A DNA stretch of 64,000 bases from Glutamicibacter sp. B1 (GTDB lineage Bacteria; Actinomycetota; Actinomycetes; Actinomycetales; Micrococcaceae): assembly GCF_039602135.1 (NCBI RefSeq), contig NZ_CP125942.1, positions 1,178,001 through 1,242,000 on the forward strand, in the 5' to 3' direction. Positions 2,072-39,932 of this stretch are shown one piece after another. The notes under the pieces are model-generated. The model searched no databases, had not been told where the DNA came from, and was given only the letters and a program-made list of their open reading frames with translations. How positions within the stretch are numbered: position 1 is the stretch's first letter; each line of letters opens with the position of its first letter. The translations under genes were made by a program, and so were the position numbers.

Positions 2072-3172
2072 ATGCTCTCATCTCACCTTGCCGGCCCAGT
2101 ACTGGTCATCGGCACCGGGTTGCTGGGCACCTCGGTGGGTTTGGGTCTGCGCGCCAAAGGCGTGCCGGTCTATCTTTCAGATGTTTCACCGACCGCCGCC
2201 GGGGTCGCCCAAGATATCGGAGCTGGCGTGCTGTTAGAGCAGCGCACCATCGCCCCGGAACTTGTGGTGATCGGCGCTCCGCCGGATGTCACCGCCAAGC
2301 TGGTGGCCGAAGCCTTGCTGGCCTACCCCAATGCCACCGTGGTGGATATTGCTAGCGTGAAGGGCTCGATCCTGAGCGCCGTCTTGGCTGATCAGCGTTT
2401 GAGCCAGAGCGAAACGTCCCGCTATGTGGGTACGCACCCGATGGCTGGACGCGAAAAATCGGGCCCAGCGGCGGCTCGTGGTGAGCTGTTCACCTCGATG
2501 CCGTGGGTGATTTGCGCCCATGAGGGTGCCGACCCGGCGCGGGTGAAGGTGGCCGAATCCCTGGCTATCGACCTGGGTGCCACCATGCATCGCATGTCGG
2601 TCACCGAGCACGATGAATCGGTCGCGCTGATCAGCCACTTCCCGCAGGCCGCCAGTTCGATGATTGCCTCGCGGCTGCTGAACGCCGAAGCGCATCAGTT
2701 GGCACTGGCCGGCAACGGTCTGCGCGATACTACCCGTATCGCGGCCAGTGACGAGAAGCTCTGGATCCAGATTTTTTCGCACAATGCCCCTGCACTGGTG
2801 CCGATTTTGACCGGGATGAAGGAAGACCTGGACCGGCTGATCAACACCTTGCGCGACCCGCAGGGACCCGGTGCGTTGCTGGATTTGTCCACGTTGATGA
2901 CCGAAGGTAACGCGGGCAAGGCACGAATCCCTGGCAAGCACGGCGCGCCTCCACAGGCTTTTGCCCTGGTCACCGTGCTGGTGGATGACCGTCCAGGACA
3001 GATCGCCCAACTGCTCACCGAAATCGGTGAAGCAGACATTAATATTGAAGATTTGCGAATGGAACACTCTGCAGGCCACCAAGTTGGCATGGTGGATGTT
3101 TCGGTGGTTCCCGGCCGCCGCGACGAATTGATCGACGTTTTGACTAAGAACGGATGGAAAGTAGCCCAGTGA
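2072..3172 (+). CDS. tyrA: Prephenate dehydrogenase with C-terminal ACT domain
   Basis: It oxidatively decarboxylates prephenate to 4-hydroxyphenylpyruvate with NAD(P)+ for tyrosine synthesis in the cytosol. The 366-residue protein starts with a Rossmann nucleotide site (VIGTGLLGTSVGLGLRAKG), continues with the active-site region around GTHPMAGREKSG, and ends in an ACT domain (LVTVLVDDRPGQIAQLLTEI), which suggests feedback control by an amino acid, probably tyrosine. The ATG is 3 bases after the rluB stop, and the stop overlaps the cmk GTG start (GTGA), so the genes are likely coupled. Confidence 0.93.
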   Translation: MLSSHLAGPVLVIGTGLLGTSVGLGLRAKGVPVYLSDVSPTAAGVAQDIGAGVLLEQRTIAPELVVIGAPPDVTAKLVAEALLAYPNATVVDIASVKGSILSAVLADQRLSQSETSRYVGTHPMAGREKSGPAAARGELFTSMPWVICAHEGADPARVKVAESLAIDLGATMHRMSVTEHDESVALISHFPQAASSMIASRLLNAEAHQLALAGNGLRDTTRIAASDEKLWIQIFSHNAPALVPILTGMKEDLDRLINTLRDPQGPGALLDLSTLMTEGNAGKARIPGKHGAPPQAFALVTVLVDDRPGQIAQLLTEIGEADINIEDLRMEHSAGHQVGMVDVSVVPGRRDELIDVLTKNGWKVAQ

Positions 3173-3849
3173 GCACCTTGAATAACGACCAGCTTGTGAT
3201 CGCCATTGACGGACCAAGCGGCTCCGGCAAGTCCTCGGTGTCCAAGGCCGTCGCCCGCGCATTGGGTGCCGCCTATCTGGATACCGGTGCGATGTACCGT
3301 GCCATCACTTACTCGGTGCTCGCAAATGGAACCGACCTATCCGATGCCACCGCGATTGCCCAGGCTGTGCGCGATGCACAGTTGGAGATCTCGGTCGACC
3401 CCGATGCCGAGTTGGTTAAGATCGGTGGCGTTGATGTCACCGCTGCCATTCGTGAACCACGCATTTCCGAACAGGTATCCACCGTGGCCACGAACCTCGA
3501 CGCTCGCGCCGAGCTGGTGCGTCGTCAGCAGGAAATCATCAAGGCCAATGCTCGCATTGTTGCCGAAGGTCGCGACATCACCACCGTGGTCGCTCCTGAT
3601 GCGAACGCCCGTATTCTGCTCACCGCCTCGGAAGAAGCACGACTGCGCCGACGTGGTCTGCAGTTAGGTGGAAGCCAGAACGATGAACAGCTGGCCACTC
3701 AGGTGCTGGCTCGTGATGCGAAGGACTCCACCGTGGTGAACTTCACCCAGGCCGCCGATGGTGTGATGACCGTGGATTCTTCGGACCTAGATTTTGAACA
3801 AACCATCGCTGCGGTGCTTGACGCAATTAGCACTGCAACGAAAAACTAG
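3169..3849 (+). CDS. cmk: Cytidylate kinase
   Basis: It phosphorylates CMP and dCMP with ATP. The 226-residue product has a P-loop near residue 15 (GPSGSGKSS), the substrate-binding YLDTGAMYRA, the EGRDITTVVAPDA block and a lid with ARLRRRG. I chose the GTG at 3169, which overlaps the tyrA stop as GTGA. An in-frame ATG at 3154 would lie inside tyrA without a better ribosome site. cmk-der order is conserved in actinobacteria. Confidence 0.93.
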   Translation: MSTLNNDQLVIAIDGPSGSGKSSVSKAVARALGAAYLDTGAMYRAITYSVLANGTDLSDATAIAQAVRDAQLEISVDPDAELVKIGGVDVTAAIREPRISEQVSTVATNLDARAELVRRQQEIIKANARIVAEGRDITTVVAPDANARILLTASEEARLRRRGLQLGGSQNDEQLATQVLARDAKDSTVVNFTQAADGVMTVDSSDLDFEQTIAAVLDAISTATKN

Positions 3850-3914
3850 CCTAAAGCTGGTGCCCATCCTCGGCGAGAGCCGATGAAGATTACGATCGCT
3901 GTGAAGGGAAAATC

Positions 3915-5447
3915 ATGAGCGAGAACAACTCCACCCACGACGAGGAATTTATCCCCGTTGGAGACGACGATATCGCCGAGCGCCTGGCCGAACTGAGCGA
4001 GGAAGAAGCCGCCATTCGTGCGCAGGCTCTGCTCAGCGGACTGGAAGACTACGAACTAGACGAAGAGGACTCGGCCCTGCTGGCCGGTCTTGACGAGTTT
4101 GATGACGACGACGCCGATGTGGTGATCCCACCGGTACTCGCCGTGATCGGACGCCCCAACGTGGGCAAGTCCACCCTGGTGAACCGCATTTTGGGTCGCC
4201 GCGAAGCTGTGGTGGAAGATACCCCCGGTGTGACGCGTGACCGCGTGTCCTACTCGGCTGAGTGGATGGGCCGGCCCTTCACCATCGTTGATACCGGTGG
4301 TTGGGAGCACGATGCCAAGGGTATCCACGCTTCCGTGGCTGACCAGGCAGAAATCGCCGCCGACGTGGCCGATGCCATCCTCTTTGTGGTGGATTCGCAT
4401 GTTGGTGCCACCGCAACCGATGAGGCCGTGGTGAAGATGCTGCGCAAGAAGGGTAAGCCGGTCTTCTTGGTGGCCAACAAAGTTGATGACTTCAACCAGG
4501 AAGCCGAAGCGGCGGTGCTCTGGGGCTTGGGCTTTGGACAGCCATGGCCGGTTTCTGCCCTGCACGGTCGCGGCACCGCGGACCTTTTGGATGCCGTCAT
4601 GGAGAAACTTCCGGAGCACTCCGCTTTTGGTGGTTTGATTCCTTCCGGCGGTCCGCGCCGTATCGCGTTGATCGGACGCCCAAATGTGGGTAAGTCCTCA
4701 CTGCTGAACAAGTTGGCCGGTTCCGAGCGCGTGGTGGTCGACGATTATGCCGGCACCACCCGCGACCCGGTGGATGAACTGATCGAACTGGGCGGAAATG
4801 TGTGGCGTTTTGTGGATACCGCAGGTATTCGCCGCCGCCAGCACATGGCTGTGGGTTCGGATTACTACGCTTCCCTGCGTACGCAGAGTGCCTTGGAGAA
4901 GGCCGAAGTAGCTGTCATCTTGTTGGCTGCCAACGAGGTCGTCTCCGAACAGGATGTGCGGATCATCCAGTTGGCTATTGAGGCCGGCCGTGCCCTGGTC
5001 ATCGTCTACAACAAGTGGGACGAGGTGGATGAGGATCGCCGCTACTACCTGGACCAGGAAATCGAGCGCGACCTTGCCCACATTGAATGGGCGCCACGCG
5101 TCAACATTTCGGCCAAGACCGGATGGCACAAGGACAAGCTGGTTCCTGCGCTGAATACCGCACTGGAATCGTGGGATAAGCGTATTCCTACCGGAAAGCT
5201 CAATGCCTTCCTCGGCGAACTCGTCGCAGCTCATCCGCACCCAGTGCGCGGCGGTAAGCAGCCACGTATTCTCTTCGGAACTCAGGCTTCGGCTCGTCCG
5301 CCACGCTTCGTGCTCTTCACCACCGGGTTCTTGGATCCTGGCTACCGCCGATTCATTACCCGTCGTCTGCGCGAAACCTTCGGCTTTGAGGGCACACCGA
5401 TCGAAGTATCGATGCGAATCCGCGAACGCCGTAGCCGCAAACGCTAG
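3915..5447 (+). CDS. der: Ribosome biogenesis GTPase Der (EngA)
   Basis: A double-GTPase protein that assists 50S subunit maturation. The two P-loops are GRPNVGKST (about residue 79) and GRPNVGKSS (about 255), each followed by DTGG/DTAG switch motifs and NKVD/NKWD specificity motifs. A KH-like domain ends the protein with a basic tail (RERRSRKR). The first 70 residues are an acidic extension (very rich in Glu and Asp) absent from E. coli Der but usual in actinobacteria. The ATG has GAAGGGAA upstream. Confidence 0.95.
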
Positions 5448-32233: not shown

Positions 32234-33454
32234 GTGCAGGCGCTGGCCATCGTTGAGGACGAAGTTCGTGAATTGGTGAGAAGGCGTGGACTAGATCCAG
32301 CTAAACAGCCCACCATGATCAAGTCATTGATTGAAGAAGTAATCAAAGATTACGATGAGCGAGCACTTCTGGGCGCAGTACCGTCGCTGGGATCTCTCGA
32401 TGCTGCACGACAGACAATTTTTGATAATGTCGCCGGTTTCGGTGCGCTGCAGCCGCTTCTTGATGATCCCACTGTTGAAGAGATTTGGATAAACGCGCCA
32501 CATCAAGTTTTTTGCGCCAGAGGTGGCCAAAGCCAACTCACCCACATCCGTATGGAATCCTCAGAGATCGCTGCTTTGGTTGAACGGATGTTGAAGTCTT
32601 CTGGACGGCGTCTAGATCTGTCTCAACCATTTGTCGATTGCCAGCTTCCAGACGGCTCTCGATTACACGTCGTCATCCCCGACATCACTCATGAACACTG
32701 GGCCGTGAACATCCGAAAGTTCATTGCTCGCGCAGGCAAGCTAGAAGACCTGGTAGATCTCGACTCATTGAGCAGACCAGCCGCGTTGTACTTGTCGATG
32801 GCGATTAACGCGGGCTTGAACGTGATCGTTACGGGTCCAACCCAGGCTGGAAAAACGACCATGCTTAATTGCTTGGCATCTTCAATTGGACCGCGTGAGC
32901 GGGTCATTAGCATTGAAGAAATTTTCGAACTTAACCTTGTCCTTCGTGACGTGGTGGCCATGCAAACACGGCTGGCCAACTTAGAAGGAACTGGCGAAAT
33001 TACAATGCGCCGATTGGTCAAAGAGGCATTACGCATGAGGCCTGATCGGATCATTGTGGGAGAGGTTCGAGAAGCTGAATCTCTAGACATGCTCATCGCC
33101 CTGAACTCGGGCATTTCAGGACTTTGTACGCTCCACGCAAATTCGGCGAGGGACGCAATTACCAAAATATGCACACTCCCATTGTTGGCAGGCCCGAATA
33201 TAACCAGCGACTTTACAATCAAGACAGTGGCTGCCTGTATTGATCTGGTCGTTCACTGTGTGCGTAGCCCCGGCGGCCATCGGTACGTCAACGAAATACT
33301 CAGCATTCGCAACCGTGTCGAGGCCGGACAAATTGAGTCCTCGACATTGTTCGAACGACGGGATGGCGCTCTCTGTCCTGCACCAGGCGCGGATTGGGAA
33401 CATGAGAAATTTGATCTTGCGGGTATCAATATTGCTGAGCTGATGGTGGCATAA
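32234..33454 (+). CDS. tadA: Tad pilus ATPase TadA/CpaF
   Basis: A 406-residue secretion ATPase of the GspE/VirB11 group that powers Flp pilus assembly. It shows an N-terminal CpaF helical part, Walker A VTGPTQAGKTTML, the Asp box VISIEEIFEL, RPDRIIVGEVREAE and the His box GLCTLHANSARDA. The GTG at 32234 has GAGGAG upstream. tadB follows after two bases. Confidence 0.92.
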   Translation: MQALAIVEDEVRELVRRRGLDPAKQPTMIKSLIEEVIKDYDERALLGAVPSLGSLDAARQTIFDNVAGFGALQPLLDDPTVEEIWINAPHQVFCARGGQSQLTHIRMESSEIAALVERMLKSSGRRLDLSQPFVDCQLPDGSRLHVVIPDITHEHWAVNIRKFIARAGKLEDLVDLDSLSRPAALYLSMAINAGLNVIVTGPTQAGKTTMLNCLASSIGPRERVISIEEIFELNLVLRDVVAMQTRLANLEGTGEITMRRLVKEALRMRPDRIIVGEVREAESLDMLIALNSGISGLCTLHANSARDAITKICTLPLLAGPNITSDFTIKTVAACIDLVVHCVRSPGGHRYVNEILSIRNRVEAGQIESSTLFERRDGALCPAPGADWEHEKFDLAGINIAELMVA

Positions 33455-33456
33455 CC

Positions 33457-34308
33457 ATGCTTGCGTTTTTCGCGTTACTCGGAGGCCTCGGGCTGGCCAT
33501 ATTGGTAGATTGGTTGCTTTTTGCGCCTTGGGTCCGTGCTCCGAAACGCACGTCCAGAATCAAAACTGCCCTGCAACAAGCCGGAATGACTAACGTCGCT
33601 CCTGCCAAGTTTCTCCTGATTTGCTTGGGGTGCGGGGTCATATCTGGTTTGCTGACGTTTGGGCTAACAGGCGCGTGGCTTTTTGCCATATTGTTTTTCA
33701 GTTTTGGGACGTTGGCACCGTGGGCATTTTTACGTCGGCAAGCAGCAAAACGGCAGGCCGCATTGCAAGAACAATGGCCTGAAGTCGTCGACCACCTAAG
33801 AAGTGCGATACGTGCGGGACTTTCGTTGCCGGAAGCTCTGAGCCAGTTGACGTCATTGGGCCCTCAAATATTGAGGCCGCTTTTTAGAGATTTCGCTCTG
33901 GACTATAGGGCCACCGCAAATTTTCGTGTTGCATTAGATCAACTGGGTGAACGTCTAGCAGACCCGGTCGCGGACAAGATTTTGACGACCCTTCGAATTA
34001 CTCGTGAGGTCGGCGGCACGGATCTGGGAAACACACTTGCTACTTTGTCTGCATTCCTCCGTGACGATGTGCGCACGCGAGGCGAATTGGCTGCACGTCA
34101 GTCGTGGATAGTTTCTGCTGCGAGGCTCGCCGTGGCAGCACCGTGGATTCTTCTCTTGGTTCTTGGAACTCAACCAGCAGCTAAAGATGCCTACATGACA
34201 CCCGGAGGAGTGCTCGTTCTTGCACTAGGAATTGGGATTTCAGTTGTCTGTTATCGGATCATGTTGCGGCTGGGAACTTTGCCTGTAGAAGAGAGGGTTT
34301 TGTCATGA
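33457..34308 (+). CDS. tadB: Tad inner-membrane platform protein TadB
   Basis: 283 residues with the type II secretion F domain. Hydrophobic segments near the N-terminus (two, about 1-25 and 45-85), a central cytosolic helical domain (WPEVVDHLRSAIRAGLSLPE) and two C-terminal segments. TadB and TadC form the platform on which TadA drives pilin assembly. Its end overlaps tadC by 4 bases. Confidence 0.88.
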   Translation: MLAFFALLGGLGLAILVDWLLFAPWVRAPKRTSRIKTALQQAGMTNVAPAKFLLICLGCGVISGLLTFGLTGAWLFAILFFSFGTLAPWAFLRRQAAKRQAALQEQWPEVVDHLRSAIRAGLSLPEALSQLTSLGPQILRPLFRDFALDYRATANFRVALDQLGERLADPVADKILTTLRITREVGGTDLGNTLATLSAFLRDDVRTRGELAARQSWIVSAARLAVAAPWILLLVLGTQPAAKDAYMTPGGVLVLALGIGISVVCYRIMLRLGTLPVEERVLS

Positions 34309-35246
34309 ACTCCTTCATTTCGTGGGCTGCTCTGTGCGGTTTCGGCTTCGGCCTCGGACTTTGGATCATCTTGGTCAACCTACCCGGATGGCGGAAGATG
34401 GCGTTCGCTGAACGTATTGCGCCCCACGTGCGCGTAGGCGTACGGAGCTCGCGAATGCTTGAAGACTCATGGCATTCAGAATCGGGGCATTCCGCATTGG
34501 CCCAACTCGCGTCGCCAATGATTTCGCAAATAAGAAAATTTGCCACGAGCCATAACCCTTCTAACGACATCCTCTTGAAAAAGCTCAATGCCGCTGGCCT
34601 TGAACTAAGTGTCATTGACTATCGCGCACAAGAAATCATTTGCGCATTGGTCGGCATAGTTGTGGGTTCGGTATTCACAGCAGTCGCCTCGCTTCAATAT
34701 GACCTTTCATTGGTATCGAGCGTCTTGATAGCAATCTGTTGCGGCATGCTGGGGTACGCACTGCGTGGCTGGTGGCTTGGCGAACAAATCCATCGGCGCT
34801 CCCGAAAAATACTGACCCAATTTCCGACCGTCGCTGAAGTTCTGGCACTTACCGTGGGCGCTGGGGAGTCCACCACCGGAGCCATCGAACGAATCTCCCG
34901 TATCTGTCACGGAGTAATAGGTGAAGAATTCGTCAAGACGTTGAATGACATCCACGCTGGAACACCAATGATTCAAGCGATGCAGAATATGTCGGATCGA
35001 ATGCAGGTCGGCACGATCACTAGATTCGTAGACGCCATTGTCGTGGCTACGGAACGCGGTACTCCGCTCGCTCAGGTGCTTCGTGACCAAGCTCAAGATG
35101 TTCGTGACGCATCAAAGCGCGAACTAATGGAAGTTGCCGGAAAAAGAGAAATTTTGATGCTCGTTCCGGTGGTATTCGGGATATTACCCCTGACCATCAT
35201 TTTCGCGGTGTTCCCTGGACTAGCGCTATTGGAGATGAGCTATTGA
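34305..35246 (+). CDS. tadC: Tad inner-membrane platform protein TadC
   Basis: 313 residues, type II secretion F family. Membrane segments at the N-terminus, near 105-155 and at the C-terminus (LMLVPVVFGILPLTIIFAVF), with a cytosolic GAGESTTGAIERIS region. ATGA overlap with tadB. The operon should continue with pilin-type genes, but is interrupted by the prophage. Confidence 0.88.
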   Translation: MNSFISWAALCGFGFGLGLWIILVNLPGWRKMAFAERIAPHVRVGVRSSRMLEDSWHSESGHSALAQLASPMISQIRKFATSHNPSNDILLKKLNAAGLELSVIDYRAQEIICALVGIVVGSVFTAVASLQYDLSLVSSVLIAICCGMLGYALRGWWLGEQIHRRSRKILTQFPTVAEVLALTVGAGESTTGAIERISRICHGVIGEEFVKTLNDIHAGTPMIQAMQNMSDRMQVGTITRFVDAIVVATERGTPLAQVLRDQAQDVRDASKRELMEVAGKREILMLVPVVFGILPLTIIFAVFPGLALLEMSY

Positions 35247-37439: not shown

Positions 37440-37991
37440 TTAAGAAGAGGTTCCGTCCAAGTCAGTACGTACCTTGTTGATCATGACGTAGTTCTTGTAT
37501 AAGCGTGGCAAAGCGATCAGAAATACCATGAATACATAGACGCCACATGCAGTCGCAAGCCAGGCGAATGGTCCTGTTACTGATCCATCACAATCGCTAC
37601 CGAAATTAATTGCCAATATTAAGAAGGCCGCTGCGAGCGCTGATACATATGACGCGGCAAGAAGGTGAGTTGCACTCTCGTCTAGAGCATCCCTGTCTAC
37701 AGATTCGGACAACCGGTACTTGGCTGCTCTTTCCGTCAGACGATCACGCCAAGACGACAGCTGGGCAAAAGCTGATATCAGCGCGCCGGCAAACAACGCT
37801 GCTCCGGCAAGCAGCGAATTTGGATCCGCAATTGAACCATTGAAGAACCACATGGCGACACCTGCCATGATTGGCGTCAGAAATGTGAGTATCCGCTCGA
37901 TCCATGCCGGCTTCGGGTTTTCGCCCCGATAATCACTTAGCGATTTGTATTGACCCCGAAAAAGAGCTGCAGGTGTAAAACGTTCCAGCAT
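37440..37991 (-). CDS. Four-TM membrane protein of the immunity region (RexB-like in layout)
   Basis: 183 residues with four hydrophobic segments in two pairs (about 35-52, 60-80, 112-132 and 140-165) and short charged ends. No sequence family recognised. It lies 17 bases after a 346-residue soluble protein gene in the leftward lysogenic operon, has AAGGAG before its ATG, and the pair is visibly AT-richer than the rest of the phage. In lambda, RexB is also a four-segment protein next to the repressor, but no sequence similarity is claimed. Confidence 0.7.
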   Translation of the reverse strand: MLERFTPAALFRGQYKSLSDYRGENPKPAWIERILTFLTPIMAGVAMWFFNGSIADPNSLLAGAALFAGALISAFAQLSSWRDRLTERAAKYRLSESVDRDALDESATHLLAASYVSALAAAFLILAINFGSDCDGSVTGPFAWLATACGVYVFMVFLIALPRLYKNYVMINKVRTDLDGTSS

Positions 37992-38008
37992 TACGGGCTC
38001 CTTCTGTG

Positions 38009-39049
38009 TTACAGCTCCAACGGTATCCGATGCGAAGGCGCCAAGTCCCTTAGCTTTGATTCGATCGCTTCGATTAGCGTTTCATTGTCGGGCGATATTC
38101 CCGGTTTTCCGACTGAATAGGTAAATTGGTCCACTACGTCGTCTGGGCCAATGAACTTGGTGGTTCCATCTGGGCCCTCCCAAGTGAACCCGGCCTCATC
38201 GAAATCTGCTGCGTCGACATTCACTTCAACCAGAGTCGCGAGCTGTTGAACGCTATTACCAGATGGATCGATACCCAGGGCTCTCAGATTCTTGGCCTCT
38301 GCTTTCTTGATCCAAAACATACCAAGGGTCTTGGACGCTTTAGCTACGCCTGTTCCCGTAAGACCGTCTTGGCGAACGGTAACTTTCTTAGTGCCAGGAG
38401 TTCCATCCGGCTTAATTTCGTGCTTAATGAGGCTAATGCTGCGAGGTTCGCCCTGGGTTATGAACTTTACCCATTGTTCAGGGTCGGTGATTCGAAAATA
38501 TCGGAATCGCCACCAACCAATCTGCGCGTCTAGCGAGCGCTCTTCATCTTGCTCTTTGCTGCTTACGCCAAGTAACTTCATCAAATTATCGGCTGGGCAT
38601 ATCCTATTTCTGGCTTCGACCGCGAGTATGGCCTTAGTTCCGGAAACGGGGAGATAGAGAAAAGCTCTAAAGGGGTTGGTCGGGGCTTTGCCACTGAGCT
38701 CTGCATCCTCTTCCGCTGATTCTGCCATCGCTAGGTCATGACTTCCTCGACGGCCATAACGAAATTCGAAATCAATACGACTACCGATACTCGCAAACTT
38801 GAGCAATCGAATCGAAGGTTGGGTATCTTCAGATTCCTCAATTTTTGAAGGAACGTCACGATGCCGGTATCGCAGTATGCCAGTCACGGTTACACCTTGG
38901 ATAGATGCGCAAATTCGGCGCAGTGACTCGATGAAAGCAACTTCACTTTCACCCGAACCTAACGTGGCACTACTGAAATCTAAGGGGGATTTCTTATGCT
39001 CACGCAGAAGTTCAACTTCGAAGAGACGGTATCCAAACTGTGTCGCCAA
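38009..39049 (-). CDS. Hypothetical 346-residue protein of the immunity region (candidate exclusion sensor)
   Basis: A soluble, mixed alpha/beta protein with no signal or membrane segment and no motif I recognise. Start TTG at 39049 is four bases after GGAGGA. It is encoded between the repressor and a four-TM protein on the same strand with a 17-base gap to the latter, which suggests a two-component function expressed in the lysogen. AT-richer than its neighbours. Candidate roles are superinfection exclusion or abortive infection, which is inference from context. Confidence 0.7.
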   Translation of the reverse strand: MATQFGYRLFEVELLREHKKSPLDFSSATLGSGESEVAFIESLRRICASIQGVTVTGILRYRHRDVPSKIEESEDTQPSIRLLKFASIGSRIDFEFRYGRRGSHDLAMAESAEEDAELSGKAPTNPFRAFLYLPVSGTKAILAVEARNRICPADNLMKLLGVSSKEQDEERSLDAQIGWWRFRYFRITDPEQWVKFITQGEPRSISLIKHEIKPDGTPGTKKVTVRQDGLTGTGVAKASKTLGMFWIKKAEAKNLRALGIDPSGNSVQQLATLVEVNVDAADFDEAGFTWEGPDGTTKFIGPDDVVDQFTYSVGKPGISPDNETLIEAIESKLRDLAPSHRIPLEL

Positions 39050-39767: not shown

Positions 39768-39932
39768 CGGACACTGGCAAACCGCGCGGACACTCGCTGT
39801 AAGCACTTCGTGGACACTAAGAACTCTAGCTTTTTCTTGACGAATATGCCCGATTCCACGCGGAATAAGGGGGAAAGTGAAAAAAGAGGGTGGACACTAG
39901 GCGGGACTTAATGTAATGATTTACTGGACACT
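39768..39932 (+). repeat. Operator array: five copies of (C/T)GGACACT
   Basis: Copies at 39768, 39787, 39811, 39891 and 39925, all in the same orientation, in the divergent intergenic region between repressor and Cro-like gene. Spacings are 19, 24, 80 and 34. The copy at 39891 overlaps the -35 box and the one at 39925 the presumed start of the rightward promoter, and three lie just before the repressor. Confidence 0.75.
39891..39919 (+). promoter_or_regulatory. Rightward early promoter (PR)
   Basis: TGGACA and TAATGA are separated by exactly 17 bases, and both match sigma-70 consensus well. The start site would fall near 39926, inside an operator repeat, so the repressor could block it. Confidence 0.65.

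Follow-up and report, generated by a model that had tools for sequence, protein, structure and literature searches.

Does the pair of genes that adjoins the repressor gene of a prophage in Glutamicibacter sp. B1 constitute a new phage exclusion system, or does it belong to a kind already described? The pair lies in the 64,000 nucleotides of contig NZ_CP125942.1 from position 1,178,001 to 1,242,000 (the window, whose coordinates are used throughout) and encodes a soluble first protein (A) and a membrane second protein (B) (Table 1). The sequence comparisons support the latter answer: A and B are probably a further pair of the RexAB-like kind, of an actinophage type and not of the lambda type. 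The initial annotation had proposed that this might be a new exclusion system; its exclusion part gains from homologues of that type in Mycobacterium phage Butters and Gordonia phage Toast, and its novelty is lost, the kind having been described before. Syntenic orthologues of the Butters pair in Actinobacteria (reported in PMC7542560) and rex-like genes beside CI-like repressors in actinophages (reported in PMC11077077) have already been noted.

Profile searches of Pfam, PHROG, NCBIfam and PADLOC yielded no credible family for A or B, metabolic families included, in keeping with the initial failure to recognise either protein. A large protein search returned 15 proteins when run with A and 11 when run with B, all unnamed or 'hypothetical', each list including one entry that is the window's own product or a near-identical copy. 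Besides the window's own copies there are full-length relatives with 86% (A) and 64% (B) identity, so the two open reading frames (ORFs) are not due to chance. Among 50,697 phage records, tblastn found A in five (Toast twice, PCoral7, Butters twice) and B in two (Butters twice). Butters gp30 and gp31 are 21% and 35% identical to A and B (5e-8 and 4e-9), and Toast gp42, like its PCoral7 counterpart, is homologous to A (26%, 1e-12). Toast gp41 gave no direct tblastn match from B; it is homologous to Butters gp31 (32%, 1e-11). The only match to A among 72,556 plasmids was on pCP105 of Rhodococcus opacus, where the next gene is a relative of B (99.8% in profile-profile comparison, with alignment rows that did not include that protein).

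Profile-profile comparison joined the window pair to those of Butters, Toast and pCP105 at 98-100%. The pairs of Sbash (gp30/gp31) and CarolAnn (gp44/gp43) gave no direct match from the window proteins in tblastn of the phage records, and their profile-profile values depended on the alignment rows used: 1.3% (close rows), 24% (distant rows) and 4.8% (all rows) for A, and 3.8%, 55% and 50%, respectively, for B; 20 column shuffles of all rows did not exceed 0.5% for A or 0.9% for B. Iterated hidden Markov models (HMMs), run on a pool of 4957 ORFs that were mostly neighbouring genes or spurious frames, reached all 37 A-position ORFs in three rounds (25, 33, 37) and all 38 B-position ORFs in two (32, 38), including those of Sbash and CarolAnn, and no other ORF in the pool below 1e-4; the starting alignment for A already held many of these loci, and neither starting alignment held Sbash or CarolAnn rows. 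Judged from these profiles, A and B belong with the pairs of Butters, Toast, Sbash and CarolAnn in one superfamily.

The likeness to lambda RexA/RexB, on which the initial annotation was based, holds for gene arrangement, is suggested by predicted fold, and fails for sequence. By layout, A and B follow the repressor in a putative operon, in the lambda order of repressor, RexA and RexB. Comparison of the predicted fold of A placed lambda RexA at the top of the list, tied with related folds, and the scan that found four transmembrane (TM) segments in B also found four in RexB. A and B are 67 and 39 residues longer than RexA and RexB, respectively, and in the window an ImmA gene follows. No likeness to the lambda proteins was detected by Pfam, HMM or profile-profile comparison: the Pfam models PF15969 and PF15968, which match lambda RexA and RexB strongly, match neither A nor B scanned singly up to an E-value of 1; PF15969 has no match among 36 members of the A family up to 0.1; PF15968 is absent from the 25 of 41 families listed for 37 members of the B family; lambda RexA and RexB, placed in the HMM pool, were never recovered; and profile-profile values were 0.1-0.3%, no better than shuffles.

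The two genes are strictly paired. A B-family gene lies directly downstream at all 16 loci found with A (one of them the near-identical copy of the window), and an A-family gene lies directly upstream at 23 of 24 loci found with B, a set that overlaps the first and from which one doubtful match of 25 was dropped; the exception has only a 163-amino-acid ORF in that position. This excludes the case, named beforehand as fatal to the proposal, of homologues that never occur as pairs. A is rare, being found in 2 of 394 genomes of the class, 7 of 395 of the family and 5 of 396 of the order (the window's own genome counted each time), and the search with B gave 25 matches in 24 of 395 family genomes, with one such gene in the genome of the window.

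A Kyte-Doolittle scan at threshold 1.4 shows four hydrophobic segments in B (residues 34-52, 60-78, 110-128 and 143-161) and none in A; at thresholds of 1.5-1.6, B loses the first and weakest. The predicted model of B consists of four long helices (30-49, 57-89, 93-131 and 141-171), and together with the scan at 1.4 it upholds the earlier description of a four-TM protein beside a soluble one. Just after the second TM segment, R82 is the one position that never varies among 26 B proteins, and it is at least 90% conserved among 37; a stretch of R, D and E residues at 100-105 is also conserved. The arginine after the second TM segment is common to Sbash and CarolAnn: R82 aligns with R70 of Sbash gp31, a residue placed by its number in the translation. 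Replacement of R70 by alanine is reported to abolish Sbash defence, for which D73 is likewise needed (PMC6426596); D73, placed in the same way, is not conserved in B, the corresponding residue being L85.

The Butters genes stand in the same order as A and B, with four TM segments in the second protein and none in the first, but they overlap by 8 bases where the window has a gap, and they are flanked by the lysis cassette and the immunity cassette, with the repressor on the opposite strand. Toast nearly matches the window, with the order repressor, A, B, metalloprotease and serine integrase, but with two small genes between the last two and the integrase on the opposite strand. In CarolAnn, repressor, A and B precede a gene with weak likeness to IrrE (0.019, below the cut-off), after which come a small gene and a serine integrase.

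An abortive-infection or exclusion module of the RexAB-like kind, made together with the repressor in the dormant prophage and working as in lambda and Sbash, is the moderately favoured account of the pair. A, probably a dimer of RexA fold that would bind DNA without sequence preference, may recognise an incoming phage by one of its products or DNA intermediates and act through the four-helix membrane protein B, the likely contact being the cytoplasmic loop of B after the second TM segment, with R82 and the charged stretch. Opening of B would then depolarise the membrane, lower ATP and abort the infection. Homology, pairing and order, topology, fold resemblance, R82 and the place beside the repressor are observed for the window pair, whereas lysogenic expression, DNA binding, trigger, channel action and defence are extrapolated from the studied relatives. 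Toast gp42, called a 'RexA homolog', is described as a dimeric, non-specific DNA binder that also binds its own operator region (PMC11077077). The roles of soluble sensor and membrane effector, as first proposed, are putative, and the direction of control between A and B is the weak step of the mechanism, because Butters, the one phage in which tblastn found both proteins, reverses it. As described in PMC7542560, the Butters pair is a prophage defence in which gp30 alone is the effector, abolishing infection by PurpleHaze and cutting that by Alma by four orders of magnitude, while gp31 alone has no effect and its co-expression attenuates the defence by gp30. These results weigh against the lambda/Sbash account, which for this reason is held with moderate confidence, and they give some weight to an arrangement in which A would be the anti-phage effector and B would hold it back until infection. 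That arrangement is nonetheless judged rather unlikely for the window: Sbash and CarolAnn, of the same superfamily, are reported to need both genes for defence, which a point change in the Sbash membrane protein ends (PMC6426596), and the retention of B at every A-locus and the invariance of R82 indicate that B is under constraint of its own.

Two other explanations depart further from exclusion by a Rex-like pair. A might chiefly regulate the prophage switch, biasing lysogeny or lysis through DNA near the repressor, with B tuning it and little value in defence; A directly follows the repressor, candidate operators lie upstream, the operator region of Toast is bound by its gp42, and lambda RexA is reported to bind DNA non-specifically and to tip the bistable switch towards lysis (PMC11077077). 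Such a role alone leaves unexplained that pairs of the superfamily also occur on plasmid pCP105 and, at 7 of 28 B-loci, within 6 kilobases of HsdR, and it is therefore considered improbable. The Kiwa system likewise combines a small multi-TM protein with a soluble protein of about 300 amino acids, so that B could be a KwaA-like membrane sensor and A a KwaB-like DNA-binding effector. In Kiwa, though, the membrane gene comes first; no PADLOC profile, in a database that includes Kiwa models, matches A or B at E-values up to 1; and fold as well as homology favour Rex-like pairs, which makes this by far the least probable of the explanations.

The immunity region itself is read from its neighbouring genes. 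On the minus strand, the repressor, A, B, ImmA and serine integrase genes are separated by 41, 17, 55 and 92 bases, respectively, the 17 bases being 37992-38008, and a Shine-Dalgarno-like sequence lies directly upstream of both A and B. The ORF listing bears out exactly the ORFs, strand, lengths and 17-base gap given initially, and PHROG and Pfam matches bear out the position of the pair on the lysogenic strand between repressor and ImmA/integrase. In related loci, homologues of the repressor gene, which here begins the lysogenic-strand series, sit upstream of ImmA, and homologues of the Cro-like gene face the repressor on the opposite strand. These genes, together with a viral contig of 37,044 bases in IMG/VR that carries a 99% identical A-B pair, are the grounds for reading the locus as a prophage. 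Five of the window's eight copies of GGACACT fall within 164 bases and may be operators, although the total of eight is not above chance (6.5 expected).

Table 1. Features of the prophage immunity region in the window.
Feature	Position	Strand	Remarks
Serine integrase, 478 amino acids	35454..36890	-	PF00239, PF07508; PHROG 95 integrase
ImmA/IrrE-like metallopeptidase, 133 amino acids	36983..37384	-	PF06114 2e-9, above cut-off; PHROG 87 metallo-protease 1.1e-14
B: RexB-like protein with four TM segments, 183 amino acids	37440..37991	-	ATG start after AAGGAG
A: RexA-like soluble protein, 346 amino acids	38009..39049	-	TTG start four bases after GGAGG
Prophage repressor, 217 amino acids	39091..39744	-	PHROG 12831 'transcriptional repressor' 6.8e-10
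Five direct GGACACT copies, candidate operators	39769..39932	+	Interval between repressor and Cro-like genes
Divergent Cro-like helix-turn-helix protein, 113 amino acids	39916..40257	+	PF13443 1.9e-5, above cut-off; PHROG 3

In related loci, the interval between repressor and ImmA serves as a slot for variable cargo. The window ImmA has 58 matching places in 53 of 375 family genomes; setting aside one without an ImmA ORF by threshold, 13 in which no repressor was found and one repeat leaves 43 sites, two of which are near-twins in one genome. Repressor and ImmA are within 100 bases of each other at 16 of the 43 and 0.5-3.2 kilobases apart at 27. Members of the A/B superfamily occupy five of the 27 wide intervals (the window, L055, L059, L065 and L123), so that, with CarolAnn, which keeps its pair in the corresponding place, and Toast, which does so by annotation, pairs do recur in other prophage immunity regions, as the initial annotation had asked. 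Three further wide intervals (L115, positions 3043-4494; L136, 4658-6104; L122, 2526-4022) hold a soluble gene of 306-335 amino acids and then one of 156-189 amino acids with 3-4 TM segments, which the A/B profiles do not reach; both genes of L115 have homologues in the L136 pair (33% and 27%), and all three are possibly further Rex-like lineages. Other cargo fills the slot in all five closest relatives, which come from the window's own genus (ImmA 63-65% identical). Taken with the place of the pair in CarolAnn and Toast, this suggests that the module has been exchanged at a fixed site.

Such exchange also fits the deviating base composition of the pair. The G+C content of A and B together is 49.9%, compared with 61.4% in 39745-64000, used as the phage-side reference, where none of 227 windows of 1610 bases is as low. 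In the left flank (1-35250, 55.1% G+C), taken as host chromosome, 14 of 337 such windows are as low. The A+T-richness first remarked upon therefore distinguishes the pair from the phage side and not from the left flank.

The B family has a second habitat, near type I restriction genes in chromosomes. There were 41 HSDR_N matches in 27 genomes, and HsdR of type I restriction lies within 6 kilobases of 7 of 28 B-loci (G568, G629, G421, G602, G438, G706 and G903; G602 lacks a full A gene), with HsdM-like ORFs in all seven stretches; 0.15 would be expected (Poisson 4e-10), a figure that uses a limit chosen after the distances were seen, rounded genome sizes and random placement, and since defence genes cluster generally it indicates a defence-island habitat and not a functional link. 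The chromosomal B-family members near type I restriction-modification genes are those of L057, L060, L063, L066, L067, L068 and L080.

The window may, tentatively, belong to a wide and so far unnamed RexAB superfamily of actinobacteria whose members diverge too far for Pfam models built on lambda, and which would serve prophages as cargo and chromosomes as a defence partner of type I restriction systems. The repressor-ImmA interval would then be a dedicated slot that exchanges defence cassettes, including soluble-plus-membrane pairs of other lineages, and whose cargo, cotranscribed with repressor and ImmA, would be active in the lysogen and might be shut down by the protease that ends repression. 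PMC12894663 counts only five RexAB-like systems as described. According to PMC9090908, RexAB is reported only in Proteobacteria, with models from Pfam or COG whose limited detection may explain such cases; the 36 A-family members without a Pfam RexA match, and the absence of RexB from the families listed for B, bear on that report. Among the titles listed in literature searches on these two points, none concerned an association of Rex with type I restriction or a repressor-ImmA cargo slot in actinophages. The invariant arginine and the clean pairing offer direct handles on the open question of signalling from RexA to RexB. The place beside type I restriction genes hints that abortive infection of the Rex type may also back up restriction in chromosomes, and the slot offers a simple route to more prophage-borne defence genes.

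Several minor observations concern neighbouring or related genes. L117 (2683-5524) and L135 (2074-4877) have in common a three-gene slot cargo with a HipA-like kinase in the middle (PF20613, 2.4e-8 in L117), and the first gene of the L117 cargo is related to genes in four other slots (L118, L122, L135 and L140). A gene for a GmrSD-type restriction enzyme (PF03235, seen once) in L058 (6042-7649) and a similar ORF in L069 (3638-5356) are each within 4 kilobases of a Rex-like pair. In Curtobacterium luteum (L002, 3904-7002), the A homologue lies inside an open frame of 1032 amino acids, which may be a fusion or a chance frame. Three genes at 32234-35246 of the window, presumably for Tad/Flp pilus assembly, adjoin the integrase end of the prophage and are taken as host flank.
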